Below are positions 10,073 to 64,000 of a stretch of 64,000 nt of DNA, piece by piece. How positions within the stretch are numbered: the stretch's first letter is position 1; each line of letters begins with the position of its first letter. The notes under the pieces are model-generated. The model was not told where the DNA came from and ran no database searches. It saw only the letters and a program-made list of their open reading frames with translations. The stretch is taken from contig NZ_LUKF01000003.1 of NCBI RefSeq assembly GCF_001592755.1, positions 62,001 to 126,000 of the forward strand. Direction: 5' to 3'. The translations under genes were made by a program, and so were the position numbers. Source of the stretch: Bdellovibrio bacteriovorus (GTDB lineage: Bacteria > Bdellovibrionota > Bdellovibrionia > Bdellovibrionales > Bdellovibrionaceae).

Positions 10073-11703
10073 TACGCCAAGGCCTCTTGTTGTTTTTTAC
10101 GAGTGTAATATTCGTAGTTGCCTTCGTAGATACGGATTTGATTTTTATCCACTTCAAAAACGCGTGTCGTGATTTCTCTTAAGAAGTGGCGATCATGGCT
10201 TACGATCATCACAGTGCCCGGGAAGTTTTTAATTGCTTCCAATAAAACTTCACGAGACTTGATGTCCAAGTGATTCGTCGGCTCATCCAGAATCAGAAGA
10301 TTCACGGGTTGCGCCAAAATAGTCGCTAAAACTACGCGAGATTTTTCACCACCGGAAAGAATGGAAATTTTCTTTTCCGCTTCTTCGCCTGAAAATTTAA
10401 ACGCGCCCAAAAGACTTCTCACAAAACCCAGTCCCGCATTCGGCATGCGCGCGTGCACTTCGTCTAAGATTGTCGACTTCGGATCTAAGACATCCAAAGA
10501 GTTCTGACTGAAATAACCAACATTGATAGAAGCACCAATATTGACCGCGCCATTTGTCGGCTCTGCATGGCCCGCGATAATTTTTAGAAGCGTCGATTTA
10601 CCGGCCCCGTTCACGCCGACAACCGCAATGCGGTCCATGCGTTTCACCAAAGCATTGGCGCCAGAGAATACTAACTTCTCTTTACCATCATCGCGCTTCC
10701 AAATTTTAGAAAGCCCTTCAAACTTGACGACCTCATCACCACCGCGAGGGGGCACGGGCCATTCAAATTTGATTTCCGCTTCTTCCGGTGGAATTTCAAT
10801 ACGGTCAATTTTTTCTAACTTCTTCACACGCGATTGCACTTGCGCCGCGTGGGAAGCGCGAGCCGCGAAGCGAGCAATAAACTCTTCTTCCTTCGCTAGC
10901 ATATCCTCTTGGCGTTTCGCCGCCGCGATCAATTGCTGCAAACGGATTTCGCGTTCTTTTTCATAGAAATCGTAGTTGCCGCCATAGACCGTGATAGTTT
11001 TATTGGCGATCTCGACAATTTTGGTGACCAGACGATTCATGAAATCGCGATCATGGCTTGTCATCAAAATCGCGCCGGGGAAGTTGCTCAACCACTCTTC
11101 AAGCCAAATGATGGATTCTACATCCAAGTGATTCGTCGGCTCGTCCATCAGAAGAACTTCAGGATTCAATGCCAGGATTTTCGCCAAAGCAATACGCATT
11201 TTCCAACCACCAGAAAAACTGTCGGTCGGACGATGATAGTCTTCAGGGCCGATACCAAGACCCGTCAAGATTTCAGCGGCGCGAGATTCAAGGTCATAAC
11301 CACCTAAGCGTTCAAACTCCGCTTGCAGTTCACCGTACTCTTCAAGGATTTTCGTCATCTCATCCGCATCAAGCTCCGGGTCTGCAAGTTTGGTTTCGCA
11401 TTCTTGCATGCGCGCTTGCATATCGCCGATGTTACCTACTGCCGACTTCACTTCTTCAATAGCCGAACGGCCCTTCATCTCTTCAATGTTTTGAGAGAAA
11501 TAGCCAATGACGGTGCGATCGGATTTAGAAATCGTTCCGCCATCCACACCCTCTTCGCCCGTGATGATACGGAAGATGGTTGTCTTACCCGCCCCATTCG
11601 GTCCTACCAATCCAATTTTTTCGCCGGCATTGATTTGGAAAGAGCCATTGCGATAAAGGATCTTGTTACCGTGTTGTTTAGAGATGTTTGATAAGTGAAT
11701 CAT
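10072..11703 (-). CDS. ABC-F family ribosome-associated ATPase
   Basis: A 543-residue protein with two ABC nucleotide-binding domains and no membrane segments. Walker A motifs are GPNGAGKTT (near residue 35) and GVNGAGKST (near residue 362). The signature motifs are FSGGWKMRIALA and LSGGEKSRVVLA, with LLMDEPTNHLD and LILDEPTNHLD Walker B motifs. The charged linker around residues 235-300 is the P-site tRNA interaction motif typical of ABC-F translation factors (EttA, YbiT, Uup). Which paralogue this is cannot be settled by eye. A very GC-rich palindromic leader precedes it, which could serve attenuation. Confidence 0.92.
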   Translation of the reverse strand: MIHLSNISKQHGNKILYRNGSFQINAGEKIGLVGPNGAGKTTIFRIITGEEGVDGGTISKSDRTVIGYFSQNIEEMKGRSAIEEVKSAVGNIGDMQARMQECETKLADPELDADEMTKILEEYGELQAEFERLGGYDLESRAAEILTGLGIGPEDYHRPTDSFSGGWKMRIALAKILALNPEVLLMDEPTNHLDVESIIWLEEWLSNFPGAILMTSHDRDFMNRLVTKIVEIANKTITVYGGNYDFYEKEREIRLQQLIAAAKRQEDMLAKEEEFIARFAARASHAAQVQSRVKKLEKIDRIEIPPEEAEIKFEWPVPPRGGDEVVKFEGLSKIWKRDDGKEKLVFSGANALVKRMDRIAVVGVNGAGKSTLLKIIAGHAEPTNGAVNIGASINVGYFSQNSLDVLDPKSTILDEVHARMPNAGLGFVRSLLGAFKFSGEEAEKKISILSGGEKSRVVLATILAQPVNLLILDEPTNHLDIKSREVLLEAIKNFPGTVMIVSHDRHFLREITTRVFEVDKNQIRIYEGNYEYYTRKKQQEALA

Positions 11704-11744
11704 TCTTGTTTCCTATCTAGTTCGCGTGGGAGCGAGTCCAGTTG

Positions 11745-11792
11745 CGCGAGCGTCGCTCGCTCCACATCCTGCGCGGGCGCGCCCGCCGCGCG
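11745..11792 (-). promoter_or_regulatory. GC-rich palindromic leader of the ABC-F gene
   Basis: Two strong inverted repeats lie in the 150-nt gap upstream of the ABC-F gene: GCGAGC-GTC-GCTCGC around 11749-11763, and the perfect 14-nt palindrome GCGGGCGCGCCCGC at 11773-11786. The local GC is far above the surroundings. They could form attenuating hairpins in the 5' leader, a mechanism known for several ABC-F genes, but no leader peptide was identified. Confidence 0.4.
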
Positions 11793-12001
11793 AATTTATA
11801 TCTCGAAAATGGCGAAAGTGCGCTAAAAATTTTTAAATATTTTGCTTAGTTTGTATGCACTTTCCAGAGTGTACACGGAAAAATAAACTTCGGGAAAAAA
11901 TCGCGCAAGGAAGCTTCAAGAATTTCAAGCACTTCGCGAAATGTAGAACGCTCTCACATGGTCTTAGTGTTGCTTTTTTAAGCCGGTGGAGGGCTTCTAA
12001 G

Positions 12002-48741: not shown

Positions 48742-49839
48742 ATGTCACTTCTATCTTATCCCTGCACTTACATGAGAGGCGGCACAAGTCGTGCTTTGAT
48801 CTTCAACGAAAACGATTTGCCTACGGAGCGTGCGGGGTGGGATGACATTTTTTTACGAGCTTTAGGAAGTCCTGATATTTACGGCCGTCAATTAAATGGC
48901 ATGGGTGGTGGTATTTCTTCTCTGTCCAAAGTAGCCATCTTAAAGCCTTCCACTCGTGAAGATGCCGATGTCGAATACACTTTTGCCCAAGTATCAGTGA
49001 CCGAAAAGAAAGTCGACTATAAGGGAAATTGTGGGAACATCAGTTCTGCTGTCGGCCCCTATGCTGTTTATAAAAAATGGGTTTCTGTTTCCGGCCCTGA
49101 AGCTCACGTACGCATTTATAATACGAACACTCAAAAAGTAATTCATGCCCACTTCCCAGTTGAAAATGGTGAAGTGGTTTTTAGTGGTGATCTAGAAATT
49201 CCTGGAGTCAGCGGCAGCGGCTCCCCCATTCGTCTGGAGTTTCAAGATCCCGGCGGCGCTGCAACCGGGAAACTTCTTCCGACAGGAAATACAAGGGACA
49301 TTTTGAAGTTATCTAATGGAAAATCCTTGCAGGTTTCGATGATCGACGCTGCGAATGCCTGTGTGTTTTTGAATGCCTTGGATCTGGGACTTCGCGGAGA
49401 TGAGTCCTCCGCAGAACTCGATAGACCGAATCTTCTAAAAGCTCTTGAGGAAATTCGACTAGAAGCTTCGGTGGCAATGGGCATCGCTTCTAGCATTGAA
49501 GACGCGAAGAAATCCATCGCTATTCCCTATCTGGGGTTGGTGGCTCCCCGTTACTCTTCAGAGATGGATTTTTCTTTACGTGTGATTGCCAGTGGACAGC
49601 CGCATAAGGCTTTGCCTTTAACCGTTTCCTTGTGTGCCGCTGTGAGCGCGAAACTTCCAGGAAGTTTAATTCATGAAGTGCTAGAGAATAAAAGTTTAGA
49701 TGAAGTTCGAATCGGAATTCCTTCGGGAGTTTTAACTTTAAACGCGAAGGTGGAAGAAAAAAACTCGCAGTACGTGGCTTTAAGTGGAAGCTTCTATCGT
49801 ACCGCGAGAATTCTATTTGAAGGACGCGTGTTTGTTTAG
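48742..49839 (+). CDS. PrpF-like isomerase (aconitate/oxalomesaconate-type)
   Basis: A 365-residue protein of the PrpF fold (two DAP-epimerase-like domains). Start block CTYMRGGTSRALIF and the catalytic region KGNCGNISSAVGPY with its Cys are typical of PrpF and 4-oxalomesaconate tautomerase, which move double bonds in tricarboxylates. The methylcitrate genes prpBCD are not adjacent, so the substrate is open. 3' end overlaps the convergent protease gene by 4 nt. Confidence 0.86.
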   Translation: MSLLSYPCTYMRGGTSRALIFNENDLPTERAGWDDIFLRALGSPDIYGRQLNGMGGGISSLSKVAILKPSTREDADVEYTFAQVSVTEKKVDYKGNCGNISSAVGPYAVYKKWVSVSGPEAHVRIYNTNTQKVIHAHFPVENGEVVFSGDLEIPGVSGSGSPIRLEFQDPGGAATGKLLPTGNTRDILKLSNGKSLQVSMIDAANACVFLNALDLGLRGDESSAELDRPNLLKALEEIRLEASVAMGIASSIEDAKKSIAIPYLGLVAPRYSSEMDFSLRVIASGQPHKALPLTVSLCAAVSAKLPGSLIHEVLENKSLDEVRIGIPSGVLTLNAKVEEKNSQYVALSGSFYRTARILFEGRVFV

Positions 49840-50636
49840 TTCAGAGTTCCAAAATCCCGAAGAACTTTTTCAACCCAGGGAAGATGAAAGTCGATACGAG
49901 TGTAAATCACTGTGCCGTCACAAACGTGTTTTCTTTCTTTCGTCGTACGAACTTTGCTCGTGACACCGAAAACTTTAAGCTCGCCATTTTCAGTCGTATA
50001 AGCCGGACCACCCGAGTCGCCATGGCAACTGCCGGTATCATCAGATTGATCAAACTGAATTTCATCTTTCATGTAAAAGGGCTTCAAGATTTTAAGCTGA
50101 GTTTTGCGAAGGGTTCCCTCACCCATTTTCATTTTTGGCAAACTGCGACCATATCCTGCAACGGTGATTTTTTTTCCGGCGGTCAGCACTGAGAAATCGT
50201 TCAAGATGTTAATCGGTCTATAGCCTGAAGGCAGACTGCCTGCGAATTTTATAAGGGCGATGTCACGCTCTGGGCCGAAGATGATTGTGTTTGTGTAGTG
50301 AGGTTCACGAAGAGCTTCGACCACCTTACGTGAAACCCCTTTAGAAATTTTTGTCCCGAATCTGATTTCCATCTCGGATTTTGAACCCACCAAACAGTGA
50401 GCCGCGGTAAGAACGACATTTTTCGCAATCAAAGTCCCAGTGCAAATGGCCTTCTTCTCTGTATTGTAGATACCCACGGTCGACTGAGCAATACGCTCAT
50501 CACTGTCGACTTTATCTCCCCCAAAAATCCCCGCACTCGTGTCTGAAAGAACAACACCGCCATCATCTGCTGAAGGAGCGCAAGCCACAAAAAAGACCGT
50601 AGTTAAGAGTACTAAGAGTTTTGCAATCGTATTCAA
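49836..50636 (-). CDS. Trypsin-like serine protease lipoprotein (S1)
   Basis: A 266-residue lipoprotein (lipobox VFFVAC). Chymotrypsin-fold triad: His in VLTAAHCLV, Asp in ERDIALIKF, Ser in CHGDSGGPAY; the activating-type N-terminus IFGGDK follows a propeptide of about 20 residues. Secreted trypsin-like enzymes are abundant in Bdellovibrio relatives and would be suited to prey protein digestion (inference). Isolated minus-strand gene. Confidence 0.93.
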   Translation of the reverse strand: MNTIAKLLVLLTTVFFVACAPSADDGGVVLSDTSAGIFGGDKVDSDERIAQSTVGIYNTEKKAICTGTLIAKNVVLTAAHCLVGSKSEMEIRFGTKISKGVSRKVVEALREPHYTNTIIFGPERDIALIKFAGSLPSGYRPINILNDFSVLTAGKKITVAGYGRSLPKMKMGEGTLRKTQLKILKPFYMKDEIQFDQSDDTGSCHGDSGGPAYTTENGELKVFGVTSKVRTTKERKHVCDGTVIYTRIDFHLPWVEKVLRDFGTLN

Positions 50637-54080: not shown

Positions 54081-54166
54081 GATAACTCCCATCAAAGATG
54101 TGATGTTGAGTGTAGAGAATACTCGTGCAGACTCAATGAGGCAGATTGTGTTTTACGCTAGTGGAA

Positions 54167-54595
54167 CTAATTCGAAGCGTCTTTGACCCCAGCCCACTCT
54201 AAGGCCTGTTCGTTTTTTAAGTAAGAACGCATTTTAACGATCTTGTCGTCTCGGAAAACGAAAACATCGGCAACGCGCCCGTCGATCCATTCTGTTTTAT
54301 TTTTCAACCTTACGCGAACATGCACAAATACAACGACCTTGTTGCCCGAGACGAGATAACGCTCGGGCTGACAGCTACCCTCGGCCCAGGTTGAACGGCC
54401 CGAGGTAATATGCGCCCTCATTTCGTCAAGTCCACGATAAGTTCCACCCGTTGGCAAATCTTCGAATTCGACGCGCTCAATATTCGGATCAAAGAGTTTC
54501 ATAGCTGCAGATATATCATTGCTGTTGAGTGCTTCATAAAAGGCTCTGACAGTTTCAACCTCGGGCGTCTGCATTGAACTTGGGTGTGTCGACAT
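54167..54595 (-). CDS. SnoaL/NTF2-like protein
   Basis: A 142-residue NTF2-fold protein (VRAFYEALNSNDISAAMKLF, then YRGLDEMRAHITS and IDGRVADVFVFRDDKIVKM). The ATG at 54595 is used; a longer reading to 54820 would enter the structured gene-free region. Ketosteroid-isomerase-like members bind small hydrophobic ligands; activity unknown. This is the last clearly host-type gene before the phage region. Confidence 0.8.
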   Translation of the reverse strand: MSTHPSSMQTPEVETVRAFYEALNSNDISAAMKLFDPNIERVEFEDLPTGGTYRGLDEMRAHITSGRSTWAEGSCQPERYLVSGNKVVVFVHVRVRLKNKTEWIDGRVADVFVFRDDKIVKMRSYLKNEQALEWAGVKDASN

Positions 54596-55244
54596 GGCAA
54601 CCTCGTTAGTTCTTTTATGATGATCGAGAATGCCTTCGGGATCACCATAAAAAAGTGCAGCGACGCAACAGATGCCGAATAACGTGAGTCTCACATTGAG
54701 ACAAAAGTGAGACAGTGAAAGTTTTGCAAGGTACATTTCCAGAGGGAAATGCCTGAAAAATATGCACGTTTTGCGAGTGCCACAGGTGGGCGGAGTCGCG
54801 TAGCCAGCGGCGCGGCCCATCTGGGAAACTCGTTCAAGCGTGCAAGCACATGGTAGAGTGCGTTCTCATGCTTGGCCGATAACTCGTCTTGCGGTGGGGG
54901 CGCAATAGGAATGAAAAACAGTCTATTAAACGCTCTCACAAGCCTGTGAGAGCGAAAAGAATCACAGGGCATACAAGTTAAAAGCCAAGTTCCCCCAACG
55001 CGTGCAGGGCCTCGTAAGAGGGTAAAAGGGGGATGCGCCGAAGCGTGCTAACGACTCGGTGGAGCTGGGTGGGATTAACTATAGGGAAGCAATTTTTTTG
55101 TGGACCTATAGGGCTCACTGCGCCTTGCGGCATCCGATCTGATGGAACTGGCCGGGAATTTCGGCCCTTCCCTCTCTCGAAACGAGTTTCAAAATCCAAG
55201 ACACAACTTAACCGCACTGCGGTTGTCGAACGGAGGACGAAACT
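54596..55244. other. Gene-free, hairpin-rich stretch at the left edge of the phage region
   Basis: About 650 nt with no convincing gene. It holds many inverted repeats: GTCTCA-CAT-TGAGAC (54688-54702); CAGGTGGGC/GCCCATCTG (54783-54791 with 54815-54823); CGCTCTCACA-AGCC-TGTGAGAGCG (54931-54954); TCCCCC/GGGGGA (54991-54996 with 55028-55033) enclosing CCTC-GTAA-GAGG, a GNRA-type tetraloop (55010-55021); CTATAGG/CCTATAG (55079-55085 with 55105-55111); GGCCG/CGGCC (55150-55154, 55162-55166); AACCGC-ACT-GCGGTT (55210-55224). It could be a structured RNA, phage origin/promoter leader or the integration zone. tmRNA, RNase P and group II intron signatures were not found. Confidence 0.6.
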
Positions 55245-55490
55245 ATGCGCTACCCGAAAACGTGGGCCGAAGACTTTGCAAAGTCTCTCTCGCAGCTCGT
55301 TTTTTCAATCGAAGAGCTGGACAGATTTATTAAAATCTTTCAGCGCGAATCAAAACGAAAATTCGACTTTAAAAAAGAAGGTCTTTGCATGACCGCCGTC
55401 GAATTTTTCCAATACCAGAAACAGGTGAAAGAGTGTCTCGCGGCCTTGCGAAAACGTCGCCGCGAAATTCTGCGGGAGGCAAAAATATGA
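55245..55490 (+). CDS. Phage-region protein, unknown (81 aa)
   Basis: First gene of the phage block. GGAGG lies 9 nt before the ATG. The 81-residue product is basic and helical (FSIEELDRFIKIFQRESKRK, KECLAALRKRRREILREAK), suggesting nucleic-acid contact or a regulator. Ends in ATGA overlap with the next gene. Confidence 0.65.
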   Translation: MRYPKTWAEDFAKSLSQLVFSIEELDRFIKIFQRESKRKFDFKKEGLCMTAVEFFQYQKQVKECLAALRKRRREILREAKI

Positions 55491-55660
55491 AAAATAAAGT
55501 CGGTCGGCCAAAACTCGCTCTTAAACCAGCGATAGCGGCGCATAAAAGACTCAACCCAAAGGGCTGGGACGGAAAAAAGAAAAACCGCGCCACGGCCTCC
55601 ACAAGCGAAATAAACACATTGCCTATCGGAAGGGAGCAAAACACCTATGGAAGTAACTAA
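55487..55660 (+). CDS. Phage-region basic protein with AT-hook-like motif (57 aa)
   Basis: A 57-residue, Lys/Arg-rich protein starting MKNKVGRPKLALKP; GRPK is the AT-hook core, which also appears in the protein at 56883-57491. Likely DNA-binding. Overlaps the preceding gene by 4 nt and the next by 14 nt, showing very tight packing. Confidence 0.6.
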   Translation: MKNKVGRPKLALKPAIAAHKRLNPKGWDGKKKNRATASTSEINTLPIGREQNTYGSN

Positions 55661-55964
55661 AAGGCCGCGCGCGGCGATCTGTCCGAATGACGTTCATTGC
55701 GAAATTTACAACCCAATGGAAGAGGAGCTGATTTTTGAGAGAATGGAAGATCACGCCCGCCGACGCCTAAAAATGAACTTGCAGCCGGGACCGCAAAAAG
55801 TCCTCTGCAAGCCAGACGGCTTTTGCTACCTCCCGCACCAATACTACACTGTGAAAACCAAGTCCGGGCGGCCATGCAGCTTTATCAAAAATTTTGGCGA
55901 CGAAATGTTTAAAGGAAATAAAAAGCCCTCCGCGCCGGAAGCTTGGGAGAAAAAACATTTCTAG
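55647..55964 (+). CDS. Phage-region protein, unknown (105 aa)
   Basis: A 105-residue protein with five Cys (AICPNDVHCEIYN, VLCKPDGFCYLP, GRPCSF), perhaps a small zinc-binding or disulphide-stabilised fold. No family recognised. Followed at its stop by the GTCTCA-CGA-TGAGAC palindrome. Confidence 0.62.
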   Translation: MEVTKRPRAAICPNDVHCEIYNPMEEELIFERMEDHARRRLKMNLQPGPQKVLCKPDGFCYLPHQYYTVKTKSGRPCSFIKNFGDEMFKGNKKPSAPEAWEKKHF

Positions 55965-55978
55965 TCTCACGATGAGAC
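55964..55978. repeat. GTCTCA/TGAGAC palindrome
   Basis: GTCTCA-CGA-TGAGAC; same arms as the sites at 54688-54702 and 14722-14736. The local context CTAGTCTCAC...TGAGACGGT is shared with the helicase copy. Could be a host regulatory or termination element captured by the phage region. Confidence 0.5.
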
Positions 55979-56024
55979 GGTCAAGAAAATTTACCTAACC
56001 GTTTTTCAGTTTAAGGCCGAAAAT

Positions 56025-56633
56025 ATGAGCATGAAACCGATCATATTTTTGGCCCTTTTTTCAATAATGGTTTTGTTTTTTCAAAACTGTTCCGGCGGCG
56101 GCGAAACGGCTTTAAAAATTGACTCAAAAACCCCCACAGAAACGCCCTCAAATGAGCCCCAAGAGCCAGTAAAAGAAGTGCAAGAGCATCAAAAAGTCGT
56201 TTATATAGACCCGAAAGCACAGAGTATTTATCAAAAATTCTTAGATATGGGAAAAAACGTTATCGTCACTGATCTAATCATTGAGGTCATTGACTATGAT
56301 GGCGCAGTCGTGAACACGGCAGTTCCGGGTATTTGCATCAAAGAAGAGAATAAAACTCCGAGAATTATATTGCAAAAACATATCTGGGATAGTTATGGCG
56401 ACAGTTACTTGGGCGACTGGGATAAGACAGCGTCTTTAGGATATCACTTTGGCAAGTGCTTCTTAAATAGAGAGGATGACCTCACTATGTATGCAGGTAT
56501 GCCCGAAAGCTTCATGAATCCAAATTGGCGCTATTGGCAGTTTCAAAGCGGCAATAACACCTACTGGTTTGATTCGCAGCCTCGTCTTGGTTTTTCCGAG
56601 TTTTACTGGGGCACGCCTTATTTTATTGAATAA
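56025..56633 (+). CDS. Phage-region lipoprotein, unknown
   Basis: A 202-residue lipoprotein with a hydrophobic signal ending LFFQNC. Bdellovibrio-type lipoproteins commonly end their signal in such an FQNC motif. The mature part starts Gly/Pro/Glu-rich, then has a globular domain (GKNVIVTDLIIEVIDYDG, YWQFQSGNNTYWF). It sits between phage genes and could be a lysogenic-conversion cargo gene or a surface-exclusion factor (inference). A few codons upstream, an alternative ATG begins at 56031. Confidence 0.62.
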   Translation: MSMKPIIFLALFSIMVLFFQNCSGGGETALKIDSKTPTETPSNEPQEPVKEVQEHQKVVYIDPKAQSIYQKFLDMGKNVIVTDLIIEVIDYDGAVVNTAVPGICIKEENKTPRIILQKHIWDSYGDSYLGDWDKTASLGYHFGKCFLNREDDLTMYAGMPESFMNPNWRYWQFQSGNNTYWFDSQPRLGFSEFYWGTPYFIE

Positions 56634-56745
56634 ATAAAAAAATCCTTGCGCTAAATTCAGACATTTTTTCTTCTTAAAGAGGTCTTTTTGACCAGCTCGG
56701 AGGGGCCCCCAAGCCCTCTCTGGGCGACTTTTAAAGGAGCTAAAA

Positions 56746-56883
56746 ATGCCTTATTTAATTGCCGCCCTTGTCGCAGGTTTTTTAGCCGCCGGACTTTTTG
56801 GCGACGAAAACACCGAAGAAAACGAAACAAAAACATCCAAAGCCCCTCCCAAAAAATCAAAAAAGTCTGAGGATGAAGAATAA
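56746..56883 (+). CDS. 45-residue membrane protein
   Basis: AAAGGAG lies 8 nt before the ATG at 56746. One N-terminal membrane helix (PYLIAALVAGFLAAGLFG) then a charged Lys/Glu/Ser tail. The stop TAA overlaps the next ATG by one base (TAATG). Likely a small virion membrane protein. Confidence 0.7.
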   Translation: MPYLIAALVAGFLAAGLFGDENTEENETKTSKAPPKKSKKSEDEE

Positions 56884-57491
56884 TGGAAACGGAAGTTATT
56901 GAACAACCGTCAACGGAAGTTTCCGAACTAATTCAGTCGATTGGCGAAGCGAAGCAAGAAATTGCAGAGGTGACTCAGGCGATTGACAAAAAAGAGCGCA
57001 AAGGTGGGCGTCCGAAAGGCTCAACCGACAAACAACCGCGAAAAAAGAAGGGGCAAGTTGAGGTTCAAAGCAACCTTAACCCTTCTCCTTCCGTAGATCA
57101 GGGCCAAGATTTAGCGCCGACGGCTGAAATGATTATGCCGATGCTCGAAGGAGTTATCAAGTTTCCGTTCGATATTGCGGCCTCACGCACGGGTTGCGAA
57201 AAACTTCGAGTTACCGAAGAAGAAGCAAAACCCACTGTGCAAGCACTCGATCAGTTTTTGCGTTTTTATATGCCGGACTTGAATCAAGCCGACCCGAAAC
57301 TTGTTGCGGCTTTCACTCTTATTTCATCGGCGAGTCTATTGGGATATGCCAAGTTCCAGGTGTATTCAGATTGGAAAGCAGAAGAGGATGCGAAGCTAAA
57401 AAAACAGCTTGAGCAAGCGCAGCCGCAACCTCCAACGCCCCAGCCAGTGAGAGCCCCACAGAGTCCTTTCGAGGTTATTCAGGCGAATTGA
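56883..57491 (+). CDS. Phage protein upstream of packaging ATPase (202 aa)
   Basis: A 202-residue protein. N-terminal acidic coiled coil (QSIGEAKQEIAEVTQAIDKK), basic AT-hook-like stretch KGGRPKGSTDKQPRKKKG, then a helical domain with a hydrophobic helix (LVAAFTLISSASLLGYAKF) and a Pro/Gln tail. Position just upstream of the ATPase and similar length match PRD1 P10/P6-type assembly or packaging factors; homology is not shown. Confidence 0.65.
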   Translation: METEVIEQPSTEVSELIQSIGEAKQEIAEVTQAIDKKERKGGRPKGSTDKQPRKKKGQVEVQSNLNPSPSVDQGQDLAPTAEMIMPMLEGVIKFPFDIAASRTGCEKLRVTEEEAKPTVQALDQFLRFYMPDLNQADPKLVAAFTLISSASLLGYAKFQVYSDWKAEEDAKLKKQLEQAQPQPPTPQPVRAPQSPFEVIQAN

Positions 57492-57492
57492 T

Positions 57493-58143
57493 ATGTTTAA
57501 AGTGACCGACTTTACCCTTGCGATGGGCATTAAAGGAAGCGGCAAGACTTACCTTTCAAGGAAGGTTCAAAGTTTTTTCCCAAAAGTCGTAGTCATTGAT
57601 ACCATGAACGAGTATCACGACGGCCTTGTTTTTAGTGATTTTGATAGTTTTTGCGAAACTCTCTTAGAGTTTAAGAAAAATCGAAAAAAGGTTTTTCGGT
57701 TAATTTTTAAGTTTTCGCCTGAAACAAAAAATAAGGCGGTTATTTTTGATAACCTTTTAAGAATACTCTTTAAGTGCGGCAATCTCTGTATTGTGATCGA
57801 AGAGATACACATGTACTCGTCACCGCACAAGCTCCCTCAATGGCTTGAAAACTGCGTCCTTATTGGGAGACATCAAAATCTTTCAATGGTTTTCACATCA
57901 CAAAGACCGGGCGAAATTAACAAAACAATCCTCTCTCAATGCCAACACGTTTTTTGCGGGCGGGCTTTTGAGAAAAACGATATTGATTATCAAAAATCAT
58001 TTTTAGGGGTTTTTGCAAATAACCTAAAAACTATGAAAAAAAGGATGTTCATTTATTTTTCGCCGGACAGAGAAACTCTGCTTTTGATGGACAATGATTT
58101 AAAAACAGGACTTGAATTAAAAGAAGACACTTCCGACCCTTAA
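57493..58143 (+). CDS. Genome-packaging ATPase (A32/FtsK-HerA/PRD1 P9-type)
   Basis: A 216-residue P-loop ATPase. Walker A is GIKGSGKTYLSRKV (near residue 12-20); Walker B LCIVIEEIHMY with paired Glu; a downstream sensor-like SQRPGEINKTILSQCQ. Short size, no extra domains and this motif set fit the A32-type packaging ATPases of tailless internal-membrane viruses (PRD1 P9, PM2). It would pump DNA through a unique vertex. Next gene is a tiny membrane peptide, then the capsid protein. Confidence 0.85.
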   Translation: MFKVTDFTLAMGIKGSGKTYLSRKVQSFFPKVVVIDTMNEYHDGLVFSDFDSFCETLLEFKKNRKKVFRLIFKFSPETKNKAVIFDNLLRILFKCGNLCIVIEEIHMYSSPHKLPQWLENCVLIGRHQNLSMVFTSQRPGEINKTILSQCQHVFCGRAFEKNDIDYQKSFLGVFANNLKTMKKRMFIYFSPDRETLLLMDNDLKTGLELKEDTSDP

Positions 58144-58207
58144 GGTCAGAGGTTCAAAACAACAACAAACTTTTTTTGCCCGATAACTACGGGCCAAGGA
58201 GTACACA

Positions 58208-58312
58208 ATGCCAAGCAAAAAGGCAATTATCACAGGTCTCGCTCTAGCAGCGGCTTTCATGTTGATCTATAACAAGGTGCCCGCAGTTAAACGCGCCCTT
58301 GGCGGCGCGTAA
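58208..58312 (+). CDS. 34-residue membrane peptide (PRD1 P20-like position)
   Basis: AAGGAG 7 nt before the ATG. The 34-residue product has one hydrophobic helix (AIITGLALAAAFMLIYN) flanked by basic residues. In PRD1, a membrane peptide of about 42 residues (P20) lies exactly between the ATPase and the capsid protein and forms part of the packaging vertex; the same role is inferred here from position and size only. Confidence 0.7.
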   Translation: MPSKKAIITGLALAAAFMLIYNKVPAVKRALGGA

Positions 58313-58323
58313 GAGGTGCGATC

Positions 58324-59454
58324 ATGGCAGGAGTTATGACGCAAGTTCCTCGTGCTGAAAGGCAGAGGATTCTAGAACACATTGACTTTAAAGAGGGACA
58401 AGTTCTCTCTCGTGACCTTCCTAAAGATACGGTGCTGAAGCACCTAATCTTGCGCTTGAGCGGTGCAGTTCAAACAACCTACGCATCCGGCACTCCTATT
58501 GCCAATGCGGAGAGCACTTTCGACAGTATCATTAGCCGAATTGACGTGAAAATCAACGGCGGGACGACGGTAAAGTCTGTGCGTCCTCACTTGATGCACG
58601 TTCAGCAGCTCTTCTCAACACTTATTCAGGCAGAGAGAAAAGCGCAGGCGAAGGCAGCGGCGGGTATCATACCAAACCCAACAACCGAGGGCGGTTTTGT
58701 TTACGGTACGACCGGACAATTCACAGAGGTTGCTGAAACTGTTTTGGTGTCTTTCCAAAACGTCTACGCAAAACGCTACAATCACACTCAGTTTGGGCCT
58801 GAGAGCACTTGGTTAAACCTAAAGCAAGTTTCGAGTGCAACTGTCGAGTTGAGCTGTGGAAACTTTAAAAGTTTGCAAAATGAAGCGACAAGCTCCGTTG
58901 CAGTCACCTATGGTCCCGCGAACCATACTTTTAAAGTTCACATTCAAACGGTTGAGGCACAAGACGTTCCGGCGAACTTCAATTTCACAATTTGGAAGCA
59001 AACCACTCGTGAAGTTACTTTCAGCGGTCCGGTGACAGACTATGCCATCGACATTAACAAAGGGAACCGTTTGCAAGGTATCATGCTCTTTGCGAAAGAT
59101 GGCTCTAACAATAAGTTGGCAAGCAATCTTTTGATCAAAGACGTGGCTCTTGTTTTGAATGGTCAAACGACCATCAAAAAATCACGTTTCCTTGATCTGC
59201 AAGCGGACAACCGCTCTCGTTTCGGTGTTGATGCAAAATTTGCGGGCGGCGTCTCACGACTTGATGGGGTAGCTTATCTTGACTTCCTTCAAGATGGCGA
59301 TATTTCGAGTGCCCTTGAAGTAATGCAGCCGCTCGTAGATAACGTACAGCTTGTCTTGTCTCTACACGGTAACGGTGACGTTCCGAATTTGTTTGATACT
59401 GGTAAATCAGCGTCAATCACGATCGAGACTCAAGAGCTGATCCTGCCTCGTTAA
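58324..59454 (+). CDS. Major capsid protein, probable double-jelly-roll type
   Basis: A 376-residue, beta-strand-rich protein without membrane segment. The start ERQRILEHIDFKEGQVLSRD followed by LPKDTVLKHLILRLSGAVQTT resembles the amphipathic lead-in of tailless-phage capsid proteins; the rest shows two comparable beta halves (about residues 35-190 and 195-370). Size is close to PRD1 P3 (about 394). Its place after ATPase and membrane peptide, and the many membrane proteins following, support the call. Fold not proven. Confidence 0.75.
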   Translation: MAGVMTQVPRAERQRILEHIDFKEGQVLSRDLPKDTVLKHLILRLSGAVQTTYASGTPIANAESTFDSIISRIDVKINGGTTVKSVRPHLMHVQQLFSTLIQAERKAQAKAAAGIIPNPTTEGGFVYGTTGQFTEVAETVLVSFQNVYAKRYNHTQFGPESTWLNLKQVSSATVELSCGNFKSLQNEATSSVAVTYGPANHTFKVHIQTVEAQDVPANFNFTIWKQTTREVTFSGPVTDYAIDINKGNRLQGIMLFAKDGSNNKLASNLLIKDVALVLNGQTTIKKSRFLDLQADNRSRFGVDAKFAGGVSRLDGVAYLDFLQDGDISSALEVMQPLVDNVQLVLSLHGNGDVPNLFDTGKSASITIETQELILPR

Positions 59455-59517
59455 AATATCCATTGGAGTTTGCGCGGGCCTTCTCCTTAAAACCGCGCAC
59501 CTTTTTGGAGATTTTAA

Positions 59518-59856
59518 ATGAAACTGTATGCCGAATATCTTAAAGAACGTCGCAACCGCAATATGGTTTTGATTCCTGATATTGCTTTTGCAACCTATGA
59601 GATTAACGGCGACGAGTGCTATATCGTCGATGTTTACGTCACTCCCGAAGAGCGGCACAAGCATCATGCAACCAACCTTGGCAACAAAATCGCCGAAATA
59701 GCAAAAGAAGCCGGGTGTAAATATCTCAAAGGCTCAGTGGACCTTGAGGACGGTACGAACGGCGCGGCTTTGCCGGGGCTTTTAAATTGGGGCTACCGCG
59801 TGGTTCACGCACAAAACAATATCATCATTTTGAAAAAGGACCTCGCGGATGGGTGA
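59518..59856 (+). CDS. GNAT-like N-acetyltransferase in capsid cluster
   Basis: A 112-residue protein. CYIVDVYVTPEERHKHHATN resembles the GNAT strand plus acetyl-CoA-binding loop (normally R/Q-x2-G-x-G/A; here degenerate), followed by LGNKIAEIAKEAGCKYL and LLNWGYRVV. It overlaps the next gene by 8 nt. GNAT genes in virion clusters are unusual; it may modify a virion or host protein. Confidence 0.65.
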   Translation: MKLYAEYLKERRNRNMVLIPDIAFATYEINGDECYIVDVYVTPEERHKHHATNLGNKIAEIAKEAGCKYLKGSVDLEDGTNGAALPGLLNWGYRVVHAQNNIIILKKDLADG

Positions 59857-60724
59857 CGTTGAAAGAGAAGTCAAAAACGCGACGAACACCGTAAGTAATG
59901 CCGTAGGCGGCGCAGTGAAAGCCGTCGATCAGGCTTGGAACACGGGACGTGAAAGCTTTGAACGCAGTGACGTTGGCCGTGTCGTGAGCACCGGGCTTAG
60001 GCCGATCACTGCGACAGTCGAAGCGACTGGGGACGTTGTGCGCGGCGTGGGCACCGGACATATTGACCGAGGATTTACGATGGCCGGACGGCGACTCATT
60101 GGCGCTGCGGGAGAGGTCTTTAATCCGGTAGCGCAAGCCTCTAATGCTTTTGACTTTGTCGAAGACGGTCTCAAACGCGATCACTTTTTTAGTTCCTTCG
60201 CCGAGTCAGCGGACGCATATAGAACCTTGCAGCGTGGTGAGGCACTCACCGACGCAGAAAAAAACTCTCTGGTAAATATGACGGTCAAGCAGGCAGCTAT
60301 TGCGGGCGCGGTTGCGGCTGCGCCTTACGCGGCCAGTGCCGCGTCATCCGCAGGCTCTTGGGTTGCGGCTAATCCGATGACGGCCACGGTTGCGGGCTCT
60401 CAAGTTTATTCAGGCTTGCAGCGCGGGAACATGGCTCAGGTCGCCAGCGGCTTGGCCGGGACCGGGATGTTTGACGGTATCGAATGGCCGAACTTGGAAC
60501 TTCCACAGTTTCCTTCCTTGCCTCAGGAATGGACCGACGCGTTTAAGGACATTCAAAATAACTTGAACTCCGGGCAACCCAAAGTGAGTGCTCCGGCGAC
60601 AAGTCCAATAGTTATTCCCTACCCCAATAGCGCCCAAAGCTCTGGAACGGCTCTCAGTCCAATTATTTTGATCGGGGCAGCCCTTGGGGTAGGTCTAATT
60701 TTCATGCTTAAGAAACGACGATAG
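59849..60724 (+). CDS. Virion membrane protein with C-terminal anchor (291 aa)
   Basis: A 291-residue protein: amphipathic N-terminal helices (VEREVKNATNTVSNAVGGAV), Ala/Gly-rich hydrophobic centre (AAIAGAVAAAPYAASAASSAG), Pro-rich linker and a C-terminal membrane helix (IILIGAALGVGLIFML) with basic KKRR. This topology is typical of inner-membrane proteins of PRD1-like virions. No enzymatic motif. Confidence 0.72.
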   Translation: MGDVEREVKNATNTVSNAVGGAVKAVDQAWNTGRESFERSDVGRVVSTGLRPITATVEATGDVVRGVGTGHIDRGFTMAGRRLIGAAGEVFNPVAQASNAFDFVEDGLKRDHFFSSFAESADAYRTLQRGEALTDAEKNSLVNMTVKQAAIAGAVAAAPYAASAASSAGSWVAANPMTATVAGSQVYSGLQRGNMAQVASGLAGTGMFDGIEWPNLELPQFPSLPQEWTDAFKDIQNNLNSGQPKVSAPATSPIVIPYPNSAQSSGTALSPIILIGAALGVGLIFMLKKRR

Positions 60725-60734
60725 GAGCTTTTAA

Positions 60735-61037
60735 ATGAGTTTGTTTGATGACCTAAAAAAAGTTGCCGAAGAGGGCGCAAAAAAAGCAGGGGCCGACATT
60801 TCGGTTTACCTCGCGAATCAAGTAAGTGCCCCGTTTGTAAAAATTGCACAAGACATGGGGGCTAACCTCACCGTGGCGCAGATCGAGGCCGGAAAGACGC
60901 CCGCGCCACCAACGGTTGCACCTCCGAACAACACAGACCCTACGCCGTCGGCCTCGTTCTTTGGAACGCGTGTTGCCCCTTGGATGCTTTTGGCTGCGGT
61001 CGGCGTCGGCGCATTTTTCATTTTTAAAAGGAGATAA
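60735..61037 (+). CDS. Small membrane protein with C-terminal anchor (100 aa)
   Basis: A 100-residue protein, GGAG before its ATG. N-terminal helix DDLKKVAEEGAKKAGADI, Pro/Thr linker, then a membrane helix (WMLLAAVGVGAFFIF) with KRR tail. Same architecture as the 291-residue protein just upstream. Likely virion membrane component. Confidence 0.7.
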   Translation: MSLFDDLKKVAEEGAKKAGADISVYLANQVSAPFVKIAQDMGANLTVAQIEAGKTPAPPTVAPPNNTDPTPSASFFGTRVAPWMLLAAVGVGAFFIFKRR

Positions 61038-61040
61038 GCC

Positions 61041-61733
61041 ATGACGTTCACGCGTGAACAGGTCTATGCACTTTTAGAAAGAATCAGAGAGGTCGATCAG
61101 GCCGGGATTTATGAGGGTGCCACAGACAAGCCGCATGACATCCAAGAGATCGTTTTGAACTTGGACGAAGAGCGTCCCGAAACCAACCCTCTTGTTATTC
61201 ACACACCTTTTAAAAATCTTTTTGTCGAAGAGGCGACCTCTACGACGAATCACTTCTTCTTAAAACCAAACGCACCAGAAACTTATCAACGGCCATTTAA
61301 GTTTGAAGTGAACTCCTCGGTAGAGTTTGAGCCTGCGGTTGCGAAAGCATACTTGCATTGGCCGCGACAGCCGGGTGCTAAAATGGTGCTCAAGCTTTCG
61401 GTCAATTCAAAATTCAAAACCGGAAAGCTATTGTCACTCAACGCGGGCGGGATTTCGCTGTCAGAGGGTGCGAGCATTGTTGGACCGACACACGTCGTGC
61501 TTGTTGCGAATACAGCCGCGCAGATTGCTCCGGCGAATTTTAATCGCAAAGTCGCAACGATTGAAAACAAAACAGGTGCAGACCTTTTTGTCGGCGGTGA
61601 TAACACGGTCAACGCGACAACAAACGAGGGCATCAAGATCCCGCCAGGTTCCAAGATTTTTTGGAAAAACTCGGCGGCTCTTTGGGGATTCTCAGTGCCG
61701 GGCGGCAAAGTCACGCGCATAGAGGAGGAGTAA
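61041..61733 (+). CDS. Vertex/spike-type structural protein (230 aa)
   Basis: A 230-residue beta-rich protein; AGGAG before the ATG. N-terminal helix YALLERIREVDQAGIYEG, middle strands, and a C-terminal module ATIENKTGADLFVGGDNTVN...IKIPPGSKIFWKN that matches a beta-sandwich common in phage head-decoration and vertex proteins (sequence quoted in parts). Probable penton or spike protein. Confidence 0.65.
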   Translation: MTFTREQVYALLERIREVDQAGIYEGATDKPHDIQEIVLNLDEERPETNPLVIHTPFKNLFVEEATSTTNHFFLKPNAPETYQRPFKFEVNSSVEFEPAVAKAYLHWPRQPGAKMVLKLSVNSKFKTGKLLSLNAGGISLSEGASIVGPTHVVLVANTAAQIAPANFNRKVATIENKTGADLFVGGDNTVNATTNEGIKIPPGSKIFWKNSAALWGFSVPGGKVTRIEEE

Positions 61734-61734
61734 A

Positions 61735-62211
61735 ATGGATATTTTGCTTGCGAACCCTACTCGCAAAGTTGTCGAGGCCGCTGGGAACATCGGAGAGATT
61801 GTTAAAAGCAAAATCTTTGGTTCAAGCACATTTGCAAATCCTTGGTATGTGAACACTGTTTCCAATACCGTGATTGGCGACTCACAAATTAGCCTAAAAT
61901 GTTCCGGCGGGCGTCCTGTTCTACTTTGGATTGGTGGCTTTAACGCGAAGTTCTCACAAGAAGCTATATCCACAGCTATCAATGGCAGTATGCGCTTGAT
62001 TAGAAACGCATCTGTTATTGCAAACCCATCTTTGCAGATCAGTCTTGGGACTGGGACCTTCTTTCAGCAGCCTTCTTCATTCTGGTTTATAGATGAAAAC
62101 CCGCCAGCGGGAACAAACAACTATTACCTCGATGCCAACAGAACCGGAAGCGGGAACGCATCGGACCGCTACCGCTTTGATAACTGCGTTCTATACGCAA
62201 TGGAGCTTTAG
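61735..62211 (+). CDS. Structural protein, possible spike (158 aa)
   Basis: A 158-residue, beta-rich, Gly/Asn/Ser-rich protein (ASVIANPSLQISLGTGTFFQ). It begins two bases after the previous stop. Composition fits a trimeric spike or tip protein; no family recognised. Confidence 0.6.
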   Translation: MDILLANPTRKVVEAAGNIGEIVKSKIFGSSTFANPWYVNTVSNTVIGDSQISLKCSGGRPVLLWIGGFNAKFSQEAISTAINGSMRLIRNASVIANPSLQISLGTGTFFQQPSSFWFIDENPPAGTNNYYLDANRTGSGNASDRYRFDNCVLYAMEL

Positions 62212-62212
62212 A

Positions 62213-62686
62213 ATGAACTCTCAGCAAGTTGACGAACAACGCGGGCGAATGATTCTAAATCACTTTCACAACTATAACGTAAAGCACTTTCCGAACGTAT
62301 ATAAGTTGGATTTTGAAACGCTGATTCGCACTATCGAAGCAAAAAAAGGCGCAAGGTTTTTCCTTGAGGGCCTCGGCATGGCTGCAAACGCAATCCCAAT
62401 GGATGACGAAGACTGCGAAGACGCAATGATAAAACTTGCGAAACTTTCGCAAGGTCGTATCCCGGAAAACTGGAATACTTTTATCAAAGCACTCAGCGAT
62501 CAGGCGCAAGATATTAAATGGGATAATCTTGTGATGACAGTCGGCGGTGAGGTTGCCGAAAAAGTCGCCGACGGTTTTGCGGAGGTTGGCAATGTTACCT
62601 TGGACACACTCAAGAGTGTTGGCACAGTGTTGCCGCTTTTTGTGGTGGGCGCATTGGGCTTTTTTATCTTCAATAAGGTGAAGTGA
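62213..62686 (+). CDS. C-terminally anchored phage membrane protein (157 aa)
   Basis: GGAG lies 8 nt before the ATG at 62213. Residues 1-125 are soluble and helical, then one membrane helix (VLPLFVVGALGFFIF) with NKVK tail. Stop overlaps the next start (TGATG). Same tail-anchored layout as its neighbours. Confidence 0.68.
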   Translation: MNSQQVDEQRGRMILNHFHNYNVKHFPNVYKLDFETLIRTIEAKKGARFFLEGLGMAANAIPMDDEDCEDAMIKLAKLSQGRIPENWNTFIKALSDQAQDIKWDNLVMTVGGEVAEKVADGFAEVGNVTLDTLKSVGTVLPLFVVGALGFFIFNKVK

Positions 62687-63255
62687 TGCCCTTTTATTTG
62701 TTGGCCGGACTGATCGGCGTGGTTTTTTTAGGTTTTTCGCAGAAAGAGGAGATCAAAACCGTCATGCAAAAAACAAACGGCTCTTGGACAAGGTGGGATG
62801 CTGATTTTAAAGCCGCCGCCGCAAAATGGAAGCTTTGGCCGAACGCTTGGAAGGACTTGAAAGCTATCTGCATGAATGAGTCGAGTCTTGGCGAAGCAAA
62901 ATCAGTAAAGCACGGCTTGCAATATCCCAACGATATTGAGGCATCAAAGTCCTACGATGGAAAGTCATGGGGAATAATGCAAGTGACCTTAACAACTGCG
63001 CAGTGGCTTGACAGCTCTGCAACGGAGGCGAAACTCAATGACCCAATATATTCCATTGATCTTGCTGCTCGTTATCTTGCTTATCTCCGCAAGCTTTTTC
63101 CCGGTGAGTTGGCCACTGATATTCAGTGGATTATTAAGTCGTATAATCAAGGGCCGGGAAACTCCCAAAAAGAACGTGCCGGAACGTCCAAGGGATATGC
63201 TGGAGAGTATTGGGCAAGATTTCAGCGAAACCGACAACGTGTCGAGGAGGGATAA
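62686..63255 (+). CDS. Membrane-anchored lytic transglycosylase (PRD1 P7-like)
   Basis: A 190-residue protein with an N-terminal membrane segment (FYLLAGLIGVVFLGF). Its SLT domain shows catalytic Glu in CMNESSLGEA, GKSWGIMQVT, IIKSYNQGPGN and GYAGEYWARFQ. In PRD1 the virion transglycosylase P7 opens peptidoglycan during entry; the anchor here fits a virion-bound entry enzyme rather than a free endolysin. Its 3' third contains another reading frame. Confidence 0.85.
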   Translation: MPFYLLAGLIGVVFLGFSQKEEIKTVMQKTNGSWTRWDADFKAAAAKWKLWPNAWKDLKAICMNESSLGEAKSVKHGLQYPNDIEASKSYDGKSWGIMQVTLTTAQWLDSSATEAKLNDPIYSIDLAARYLAYLRKLFPGELATDIQWIIKSYNQGPGNSQKERAGTSKGYAGEYWARFQRNRQRVEEG

Positions 63256-63394
63256 GATGTTCAAAAAAATAAAACTGAAAGTTGTGGGCATGATAATCGC
63301 AATCGCTCTTGCAGCGGCAGCGGGTTATCTTGGCGTGAGTGAACAAGACTTGCGAGACGCAGCTCTTGGAACGGCACCTATTGAGGCAGAATAA
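63038..63394 (+). CDS. Overlapping hydrophobic protein, possible long form (118 aa)
   Basis: ATG at 63038 with GGAGG 9 nt upstream, inside the transglycosylase gene in another frame (overlap about 218 nt). It begins with two hydrophobic segments (YIPLILLLVILLISASFF and SWPLIFSGLLSRII), then polar residues, and is in frame with the short gene starting at 63257. It may be a long holin-like form with the short form as antagonist. Chance overlap is possible. Confidence 0.4.
   Translation: MTQYIPLILLLVILLISASFFPVSWPLIFSGLLSRIIKGRETPKKNVPERPRDMLESIGQDFSETDNVSRRDKMFKKIKLKVVGMIIAIALAAAAGYLGVSEQDLRDAALGTAPIEAE
63257..63394 (+). CDS. 45-residue membrane protein
   Basis: Strong GAGGAGG at 63244-63250 before the ATG. 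One membrane helix (VVGMIIAIALAAAAGYLG) preceded by a basic FKKIKLK segment and followed by an acidic tail. Either the sole product or the short product of a two-start gene. Confidence 0.65.
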   Translation: MFKKIKLKVVGMIIAIALAAAAGYLGVSEQDLRDAALGTAPIEAE

Positions 63395-63612
63395 TGGAAG
63401 AGATAAGAGCGGTCATCGGCGATCAAAATATGCAAAATGCTTTTTGGCTTGTGGTGGGCTCTTTGGTTCTTTCAAACGCGGGACTTATCGCAAGCGGCGT
63501 GGTCTCGCACTTTCGCAAGATTCGCAAAATGCGAAGGGATATTGACACAGCTTGGGTTGAAATTCGTTTACTAAAAAAGGCTTTGGCCGACAAAGAAGGA
63601 GAAGAAAAATGA
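63394..63612 (+). CDS. 72-residue membrane/coiled-coil protein
   Basis: Begins one base over the preceding stop. One membrane helix (AFWLVVGSLVLSNAGLIASG) then a basic, helical coiled coil (RRDIDTAWVEIRLLKKALAD). Layout resembles spanin or holin partners in lysis cassettes; assignment uncertain. Confidence 0.6.
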   Translation: MEEIRAVIGDQNMQNAFWLVVGSLVLSNAGLIASGVVSHFRKIRKMRRDIDTAWVEIRLLKKALADKEGEEK

Positions 63613-64000
63613 AGTCTTGGATTGTTCACTATAAAAATAAGTTTCCGGGTTGCACAGTAAACGCGACAGAAAACTCTCTTGATGTTTTCGGCGCGGACGG
63701 CTCGCACCTTGTGAGTCTCGTCAAAAACGGCGCGGGCCAGTGGGTTGACCGCTCTGAAGAGATGGGTTGCGCAAAAAAGCACTGCACAGCTCCTATTCCA
63801 CGCGATGCGCGAGTCCACAAACTTTGCAAAGTAACGGGGAATATCATTCCCGATGAAGAAGCGGGCGAACGCGTGAAAGCTCGTCGTGCAGTGATGAACT
63901 CTGCGGGTGAGGTTCGCACTATTGCTGAAATGCAAGCACAGGGGCACGAGTTCGATGCGAAGGGTGGGTTGATCAAAAAGACTCAGACTCCGCAAGTATC
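63609..64000 (+). CDS. Partial phage-region protein, unknown
   Basis: Open to the right edge of the window (about 130 residues seen). Starts MKSWIVHYKNKFPG. Several Cys and His (EEMGCAKKHCTAPIP, VHKLCKVTGNI) suggest a zinc-binding fold. Overlaps the previous gene by 4 nt (ATGA). No family recognised. Confidence 0.6.
   Translation, partial: MKSWIVHYKNKFPGCTVNATENSLDVFGADGSHLVSLVKNGAGQWVDRSEEMGCAKKHCTAPIPRDARVHKLCKVTGNIIPDEEAGERVKARRAVMNSAGEVRTIAEMQAQGHEFDAKGGLIKKTQTPQV

Follow-up and report, generated by a model that had tools for sequence, protein, structure and literature searches.

A candidate P7-type membrane peptide gene between the packaging ATPase and capsid genes of double-jelly-roll prophages in Bdellovibrionota

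Positions 58208–58312 of the window (the whole 64,000-nt stretch of Bdellovibrio bacteriovorus DNA analysed here) likely encode a single-span peptide of P7 type that resides in the virion membrane of a tailless double-jelly-roll (DJR) phage integrated here, and we propose below a mechanism for its action. The order of an ATPase gene, a membrane peptide gene and a DJR capsid gene in this prophage was confirmed. That a small gene occupies this slot is not new as a general statement, since in 2007 a small P7 gene was described between the ATPase and major capsid protein (MCP) genes of all thirteen PM2-like prophages (PMC1950889), and in 2022 the P7 slot gene was reported across Vinavirales, where it is probably ancestral (PMC9502842). 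The modest new point is a Bdellovibrionota group in which a tectivirus-like capsid protein is accompanied by a P7-type peptide. It adds to the phylum a DJR prophage group (nine elements in eight of 369 genomes) and shows the P7-type peptide outside phages whose capsid proteins are of the PM2 type. Our literature search, supplementary tables aside, found no publication linking Bdellovibrio with DJR phages.

The prophage and its ATPase, peptide and capsid genes

The prophage measures 10.3 kb (about 54694–65036), and its borders were taken from the empty site in a sister genome, G018, where alignment shows that the sequences corresponding to window positions 54162–54693 and 65037–66485 abut with a 9-nt overlap. 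No convincing exact att repeats of at least 13 nt were found around it. A tyrosine recombinase gene lies just outside the window (64067–64636, minus strand, PF00589 E 1.9e-18); such right-edge recombinases are small (178–191 aa), and the G018 element apparently has two. Within the 10.3 kb the genes run in the order 202-aa GGRPKGS protein, ATPase, peptide, MCP, GNAT acetyltransferase and 291-aa protein with a C-terminal membrane segment, followed by a short membrane protein, a 230-aa protein, a 158-aa protein, a membrane protein, an SLT transglycosylase and small ORFs; no replication gene was recognised among them. The features are as follows.

54694–64000 in the window, right edge about 65036 beyond it (G000:C3:127036), no strand: integrated DJR prophage, delimited by the G018 unoccupied-site alignment
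56883–57491, plus strand: 202-aa protein in the place of PRD1 P10 and PM2 gp-h; position and motif kept in four relatives
57493–58143, plus strand: packaging ATPase, HerA/FtsK-like, B204/P9 type, 216 aa; identified by motifs, family matches and a B204 match
58144–58207, plus strand: 64-nt gap between ATPase and peptide genes, with an A/C-rich stretch CAACAACAA and a GCCCG/CGGGC hairpin; place equivalent to the PM2 late promoter region
58196–58201, plus strand: AAGGAG, ribosome-binding site of the peptide gene, identified by sequence; all nine elements have a purine-rich site here
58208–58312, plus strand: P7-like single-span membrane peptide MPSKKAIITGLALAAAFMLIYNKVPAVKRALGGA, 34 aa, ATG start; upstream sequence CGGGCCAAGGAGTACACA
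58324–59454, plus strand: predicted DJR MCP, 376 aa; AAGAGG upstream; assigned by AF2 fold
59518–59856, plus strand: GNAT acetyltransferase directly 3' of the MCP gene; PF00583 E 1.6e-6
59849–60724, plus strand: 291-aa protein with a C-terminal membrane segment; position kept in relatives
61041–61733, plus strand: 230-aa conserved protein; position kept in relatives
62683–63255, plus strand: SLT-type lytic transglycosylase; PF01464 E 5e-12

The 230-aa protein is a probable virion component. A tail-collar-like protein (DGFMLCDGR ... DYRGRFLRG) is encoded in the G018 element (L018 rc 11513–11992) where the window has an unrelated-looking 158-aa protein (61735–62211), and this position probably holds an exchangeable receptor-binding protein. 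Elsewhere in the window, a trypsin-like protease (49836–50636) belongs to a large paralogous family; this genome has 13 of its members, and genomes of genus relatives have up to about 31.

The ATPase carries Walker A (GIKGSGKT) and Walker B (CIVIEEI) motifs and matches AAA_22 in Pfam and a terminase-like PHROG family, and its residues 6–197 match the solved STIV packaging ATPase B204 (E 1.3e-4); both Walker motifs, a length of about 200 aa and likeness to a known packaging ATPase are what is expected of a HerA/FtsK-type packaging ATPase. The 202-aa protein encoded upstream of it contains an AT-hook-like GGRPKGS stretch. A GRPxGS stretch of this kind is also found in PRD1 P10 (KRGRPAGSGTGAKRGRPAG; L037 7029–7640) and in Badulia gp11 (GRPPGSTNK; L047 1701–2198), which suggests that DNA binding by the protein in this assembly-factor position is worth a look; homology of the 202-aa protein to P10 or gp-h was not supported by hhalign, the GRP stretch excepted.

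By sequence, the MCP had no match in Pfam and only chance hits in the PDB. An AF2 model built from a five-sequence alignment (pLDDT 79.5, pTM 0.84) is a double jelly roll, with Z scores of 26.6 to the P3 protein of PR772/PRD1, 26.5 to the STIV MCP and 21.5 to PM2 P2, 257 of whose 269 residues were aligned. This is the fold that characterises Bamfordvirae, and on the strength of the model the product of 58324–59454 is a DJR major capsid protein.

The peptide gene is separated from the ATPase stop codon by 64 nt and from the MCP start by 11 nt. Its product had no match in PHROG or Pfam. Modelled from a nine-sequence alignment (mean pLDDT 84.8, pTM 0.40), it is predicted to form a helix at residues 4–23, a break at Val24-Pro25 and a short helix at residues 25–30. 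When the gap in the window was shuffled with dinucleotide composition preserved, a comparable ORF (ATG, ribosome site, 30–55 aa and a hydrophobic segment) arose in none of 2000 shuffles. Differences between the window gene and its counterpart in G024 are distributed 18/14/24 over the three codon positions, the third being the most variable. The small single-helix gene that the initial annotation had placed between the ATPase and capsid genes is thus real, with the ORFs as described, none of the shuffles matching it and relatives keeping it, and the ribosome site of its own that had been claimed for it is the AAGGAG listed above.

The slot in Bdellovibrionota and in other phages

Across the 369 genomes of the phylum that were searched, the MCP was found in eight, amounting to nine elements (two in G225), and the ATPase gene adjoins the MCP gene in every one. 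All nine have a slot ORF of 33–38 aa with a basic N-terminus, a single helix and a ribosome site of its own; the peptides of the other eight are MPSKKTIMVTAVIALAVVLAVFKVPQIRNALKI (G024), MPKFDKSTVITALVVIVAFMFAYNKNILGIKQKLGGS (G018), MKTLAKQIALGVIGGLLAMYIAKKVPTVGAIVK (G350), MNKNMLIGIGIGIALVWAGKNVPGVKDVAGPVLTKVGI (G232), MSMLKKAVPYLISGGVAVLIIVGMKRLAPGAASKLGL (G187), MKTELKHIGKILLVSLVAIAGYNIVRAKFPQTKLP (G139), MAKFKRYAIMAIAGVVGVAIAFRTPVLKDYIVPMQK (G225b) and MKGLFSKRNLIQTAMTIGVIILIRKSPLAKYIQV (G225a). Each of the nine begins with ATG after a purine run resembling a ribosome site, has a net positive N-terminus, enters its helix by residue 10 and ends in a positive tail, and the window peptide is 42–47% identical to its nearest two relatives. 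Shuffling the gaps of the other eight elements gave a comparable ORF in 0–14 of 2000 trials (at most 0.7%), as against nine of nine real gaps. Relatives lacking a short ORF here, or having lost its ribosome site and helix, would have counted against the initial annotation; in the related prophages all three are kept in nine of nine cases. Searches of IMG/VR with a single MCP, a single ATPase and two alignments returned no close relative, phage records searched with the MCP returned none, and GTDB genome contigs gave none with the MCP and three loci with the ATPase alignment, all already among the elements found by the genome search. The G225:C6 contig (L021, L042) carries two different DJR elements about 8.7 kb apart, with diverged MCPs and ATPases.

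Outside the phylum, at least one short membrane ORF occupies the same slot in PM2, Cr39582, fNo16, PG21, the 10N Vibrio phages and an autolykivirus, and likewise in PRD1, GC1, phiG2, Toil, Forthebois, Badulia and a Pyrobaculum element. In PM2 the ATPase gene IX is followed by gene VII (P7, 34 aa, MINKTTIKTVLITLGVLAAVNKVSALRSVKRLIS) and then by the MCP gene II, and the slot of Cr39582 has the same order; in PRD1 and GC1 the slot holds two ORFs. The slot ORFs of fNo16 and PG21, MIKKYLPLVLVTLVTMAAVNRVPMAKNIVNPL and MKKYLITAAVVVVTMAVVNRVEPVSNIVYNK, are unannotated: the GenBank records of these Vibrio phages miss the P7-like ORF (fNo16, L038 1541–1708 and 1626–1724; PG21, L050 3233–3328), and in that of fNo16 a CDS on the minus strand is annotated across it. 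Further Vibrio elements have slot peptides of the form ...WASNNVDAVED.... In the Pyrobaculum extrachromosomal element (L062 3769–3870) a 33-aa peptide, MKIKSWLLVVAAVIVGFAIYQFIIYPAIVRVAR, lies in the same ATPase–MCP slot inside an annotated 54-aa CDS. Thermus phage phiKo, however, has only 13 nt and no slot ORF between its ATPase and MCP genes, and it has three small membrane proteins 3' of the MCP; loss or relocation of the slot gene therefore happens. The proposal that a small gene is kept here across distant phages thus holds for PM2-type, tectivirus-type and archaeal elements but not for phiKo.

The initial annotation had equated the gene order with PRD1 IX-XX-III and the peptide with PRD1 P20. 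PRD1 does have XX-III downstream of IX, but ORFi (42 aa) also lies between IX and XX, so that with two small ORFs the order is not exactly equal. PM2 IX-VII-II is the better match, and in sequence, charge pattern, length and spacing the peptide resembles PM2 P7 instead of P20. The gene lies on the same strand in the ATPase–MCP slot, and its product has the size (about 30–40 aa), basic N-terminus, single helix and basic-V/T-x motif after the helix of a P7-type peptide.

Sequence similarity points the same way. An HMM trained on eight Vinavirales slot peptides only, and compared against 372 small membrane ORFs, most of them unproven, as controls, scored the G024 peptide at 18.5 bits (E 2.7e-5) and the window peptide at 12.2 bits (E 0.0025, weak, as single-peptide scores are at 34 aa), both above all 372 controls. 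As a set, the nine Bdellovibrionota peptides exceeded the controls (Mann-Whitney p 1.9e-6), and the reverse HMM, built from the Bdellovibrionota peptides, recovered the Vinavirales peptides (p 7.8e-7); these p-values, like those that follow, are indicative only and serve to rank hypotheses, because sequences within each set are related and rows are not independent. With 52 annotated small membrane CDS from the same phages as controls, the corresponding values in the two directions were p 2.7e-5 and 7.1e-6. Similarity to P7 above unrelated small membrane peptides was therefore found with both HMM directions, modestly so for single peptides. PRD1 P20 shares the ATPase–MCP slot, but it was outscored by 236 of the 372 controls with the Vinavirales HMM and by 109 with the reverse one, no better than control membrane peptides, and the tectivirus set did not differ from the 372 controls with the Vinavirales HMM (p 0.4). 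Against the annotated controls, neither the Vinavirales nor the Bdellovibrionota model recovered the tectivirus peptides (p 0.82 and 0.57). An HMM restricted to tectivirus peptides did pick up both other sets faintly (p about 0.01), so that a very distant kinship is conceivable.

Transcription unit and proposed role of the peptide

The distances before and after the peptide gene are 64/11 nt in the window, 88/12 in G024, 113/1 in G018, 166/52 in G350, 121/-1 in G232 and, counting the first distance from a small ORF 3' of the ATPase gene, 217/13 in G225a, 167/105 in G225b, 175/13 in G187 and 188/98 in G139, that is, 64–217 nt before and -1 to 105 nt after, with 13 nt or less after it in six of nine. 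PM2 (134/12), fNo16 (192/12) and PG21 (129/14) are spaced similarly (120–192 and 12–14 nt). In tectiviruses, the slot ORF mostly follows within 20 nt (PRD1, 11 before ORFi and -1 before XX; phiG2, 20/35; Toil, 3/16; Forthebois, 15/14; Badulia, 73/36). By these distances the spacing follows PM2, with a long gap before the peptide gene and usually tight coupling to the capsid gene. The late promoter of PM2 lies between IX and VII (PMC1950889), and both G225 copies have a rho-independent-like terminator of nine pairs between the ATPase and peptide genes; from spacing, promoter position and terminators together, the peptide gene is probably transcribed with the capsid genes, as in PM2, rather than with the ATPase gene. 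A sigma-70 promoter scan gave no promoter-like site within the 64-nt gap. An A/C-rich leader with ACAAC repeats lies just 5' of the peptide ribosome site in the window (58155–58168) and in G018, G024 and G232 (L018, L017 and L020 gaps), and is perhaps an unstructured late mRNA leader.

On a P7-type reading, the gene for this virion peptide would open the capsid (late) transcription unit and, in the window and in most relatives, is coupled to the MCP gene. Residues 4–23 of the peptide, about 20 in all, would span the host inner membrane and later the internal vesicle of the phage, and beyond a kink at the NKVP motif the C-terminal end would lie on the membrane surface as a short basic helix (25–30). 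Beneath one capsid vertex a number of copies would probably assemble, forming or lining a membrane passage where the ring of the packaging ATPase docks. We infer a location in the virion membrane from P7 of PM2, a minor, membrane-located structural protein (PMC9502842) that is annotated as "virion structural protein" in its sequence record. The vertex and conduit role is plausible by analogy with PRD1 P20 and P22, each predicted to have one long membrane helix and one short one, which form a transmembrane conduit under the P9/P6 portal (PMC4267777); only for these two has a packaging-vertex role been demonstrated (PMC4267777), and the PM2 and Vinavirales papers cited here give none for P7. If the peptide does sit in the packaging vertex, a minimal membrane conduit has been kept over a large evolutionary distance, and the nine diverged sequences point to the NKVP kink and the basic tail as targets for tests of that role.

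With only 34 codons, the gene might be suspected of being a chance ORF in an intergenic spacer, but the empty shuffles and the similar sequences in nine of nine elements leave that explanation a negligible probability. Short single-span peptides can be holins. The form of this one would fit a pinholin-like lysis peptide, and its place directly 5' of the MCP gene, which it overlaps in one relative, would fit a leader controlling MCP translation; such a lysis or regulatory role is nevertheless very improbable, because both amino acids and position are conserved, whereas lysis genes of such phages vary and sit elsewhere, 4 kb separate the gene from the transglycosylase and other membrane ORFs downstream of it, and P7 of PM2 is part of the virion (PMC9502842). 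The strongest alternative is a general membrane–capsid organiser acting over the whole vesicle, as a tie between membrane and shell or through curvature, with no special vertex role, in view of the usual coupling of its gene to the MCP gene (1–14 nt or overlap in six of nine) and not to the ATPase gene (64–217 nt away, with a terminator between them in two elements); both ends of the peptide are basic, as expected for holding lipid head groups. A shell-wide organiser would be abundant, however, while P7 is called minor, the slot next to the ATPase gene is kept across distant phages, and P20, in the same slot of PRD1, is a vertex protein (PMC4267777). We regard such an organiser as a genuine possibility, though we would not expect it to prove correct.

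Descent from one ancestral vertex peptide of all Tectiliviricetes, with the peptide a true orthologue of P20 and P7 and P20 as diverged forms, would account for the slot being shared by PM2-type, tectivirus-type and archaeal elements and for the long and short helices of both peptides (PMC4267777). The weak preference of the tectivirus-slot model for these peptides over the annotated controls (MWU p 0.0097) and the basic-x-Pro motif after the helix in the phiG2 and Toil slot peptides ([KR]x(1,2)P, a motif picked after inspection of the sequences) are in keeping with it. We nonetheless consider this orthology unlikely, as P20 scored no better than controls with either model, the Vinavirales and Bdellovibrionota models miss the tectivirus peptides, these are neutral rather than basic at the N-terminus and 42–51 aa long as against 33–38, and PRD1 and GC1 have two slot ORFs. 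Also unlikely, and speculative, is the wider idea that in tailless DJR phages the single-span peptide is an ancestral, near-universal third part of the ATPase–MCP morphogenesis module. On that view a single vertex protein would have diverged into P7, P20 and the archaeal peptide, and the elements of Bdellovibrionota, with a P7-like peptide beside a tectivirus-like MCP, would be the link that reveals it. A P7-type virion peptide remains our preferred reading.

Affiliation and comparison with known systems

The element carries mixed signals. By sequence its MCP is not of the PM2 P2 type (hhalign 1.9% to Vinavirales MCPs, about 2% to PM2 P2, against 95.3% to phiG2/phiKo), and the element is therefore not simply PM2-like. 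The ATPase profile is equally near Vinavirales and phiG2/phiKo; the best ATPase tree places the elements with Vinavirales (support 81/74), and a tectivirus placement was not rejected (p-AU 0.136). A GNAT gene between the MCP and spike genes has been reported for Vinavirales (PMC9502842), and here, too, P7 and GNAT genes surround the MCP gene. Because MCP, ATPase and GNAT signals are mixed, we assign the element to neither order on its sequence.

Among known phages, Lysinibacillus phage phiG2 and phiKo have the nearest MCP profile (hhalign 95.3%, E 2.3e-8). phiG2 also gives the best ATPase hit and has a 49-aa slot peptide with TKFP after the helix, but that peptide is longer and lacks a basic N-terminus, and phiKo has no slot ORF. 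The fNo16, PG21 and 10N Vibrio phages share slot peptides that are P7-like and carry an N-[KRN]-V motif, but have a 265-aa PM2-type MCP. PRD1 P20 resembles the present peptide as a small single-span membrane protein encoded immediately before a DJR MCP gene and in its long and short helices (PMC4267777). It differs in its 42-aa length, its neutral N-terminus, its lack of detectable sequence similarity and the absence of a gap in front of its gene, with ORFi between it and the ATPase gene, and the gene for its partner P22 lies 3' of the MCP gene, where a GNAT gene is found here. PM2 P7 belongs to a phage of another host phylum, and the neighbouring MCP here, at 376 aa, has a profile nearer to phiG2/phiKo than to PM2 P2. 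P7 is nonetheless the closest counterpart described, with 34 aa, a basic N-terminus, one hydrophobic helix, an NK-V-x-A motif and a basic tail (AAVNKVSALRSVKR vs LIYNKVPAVKRA), encoded between ATPase gene IX and MCP gene II with a long gap before it and a 12-nt gap after.
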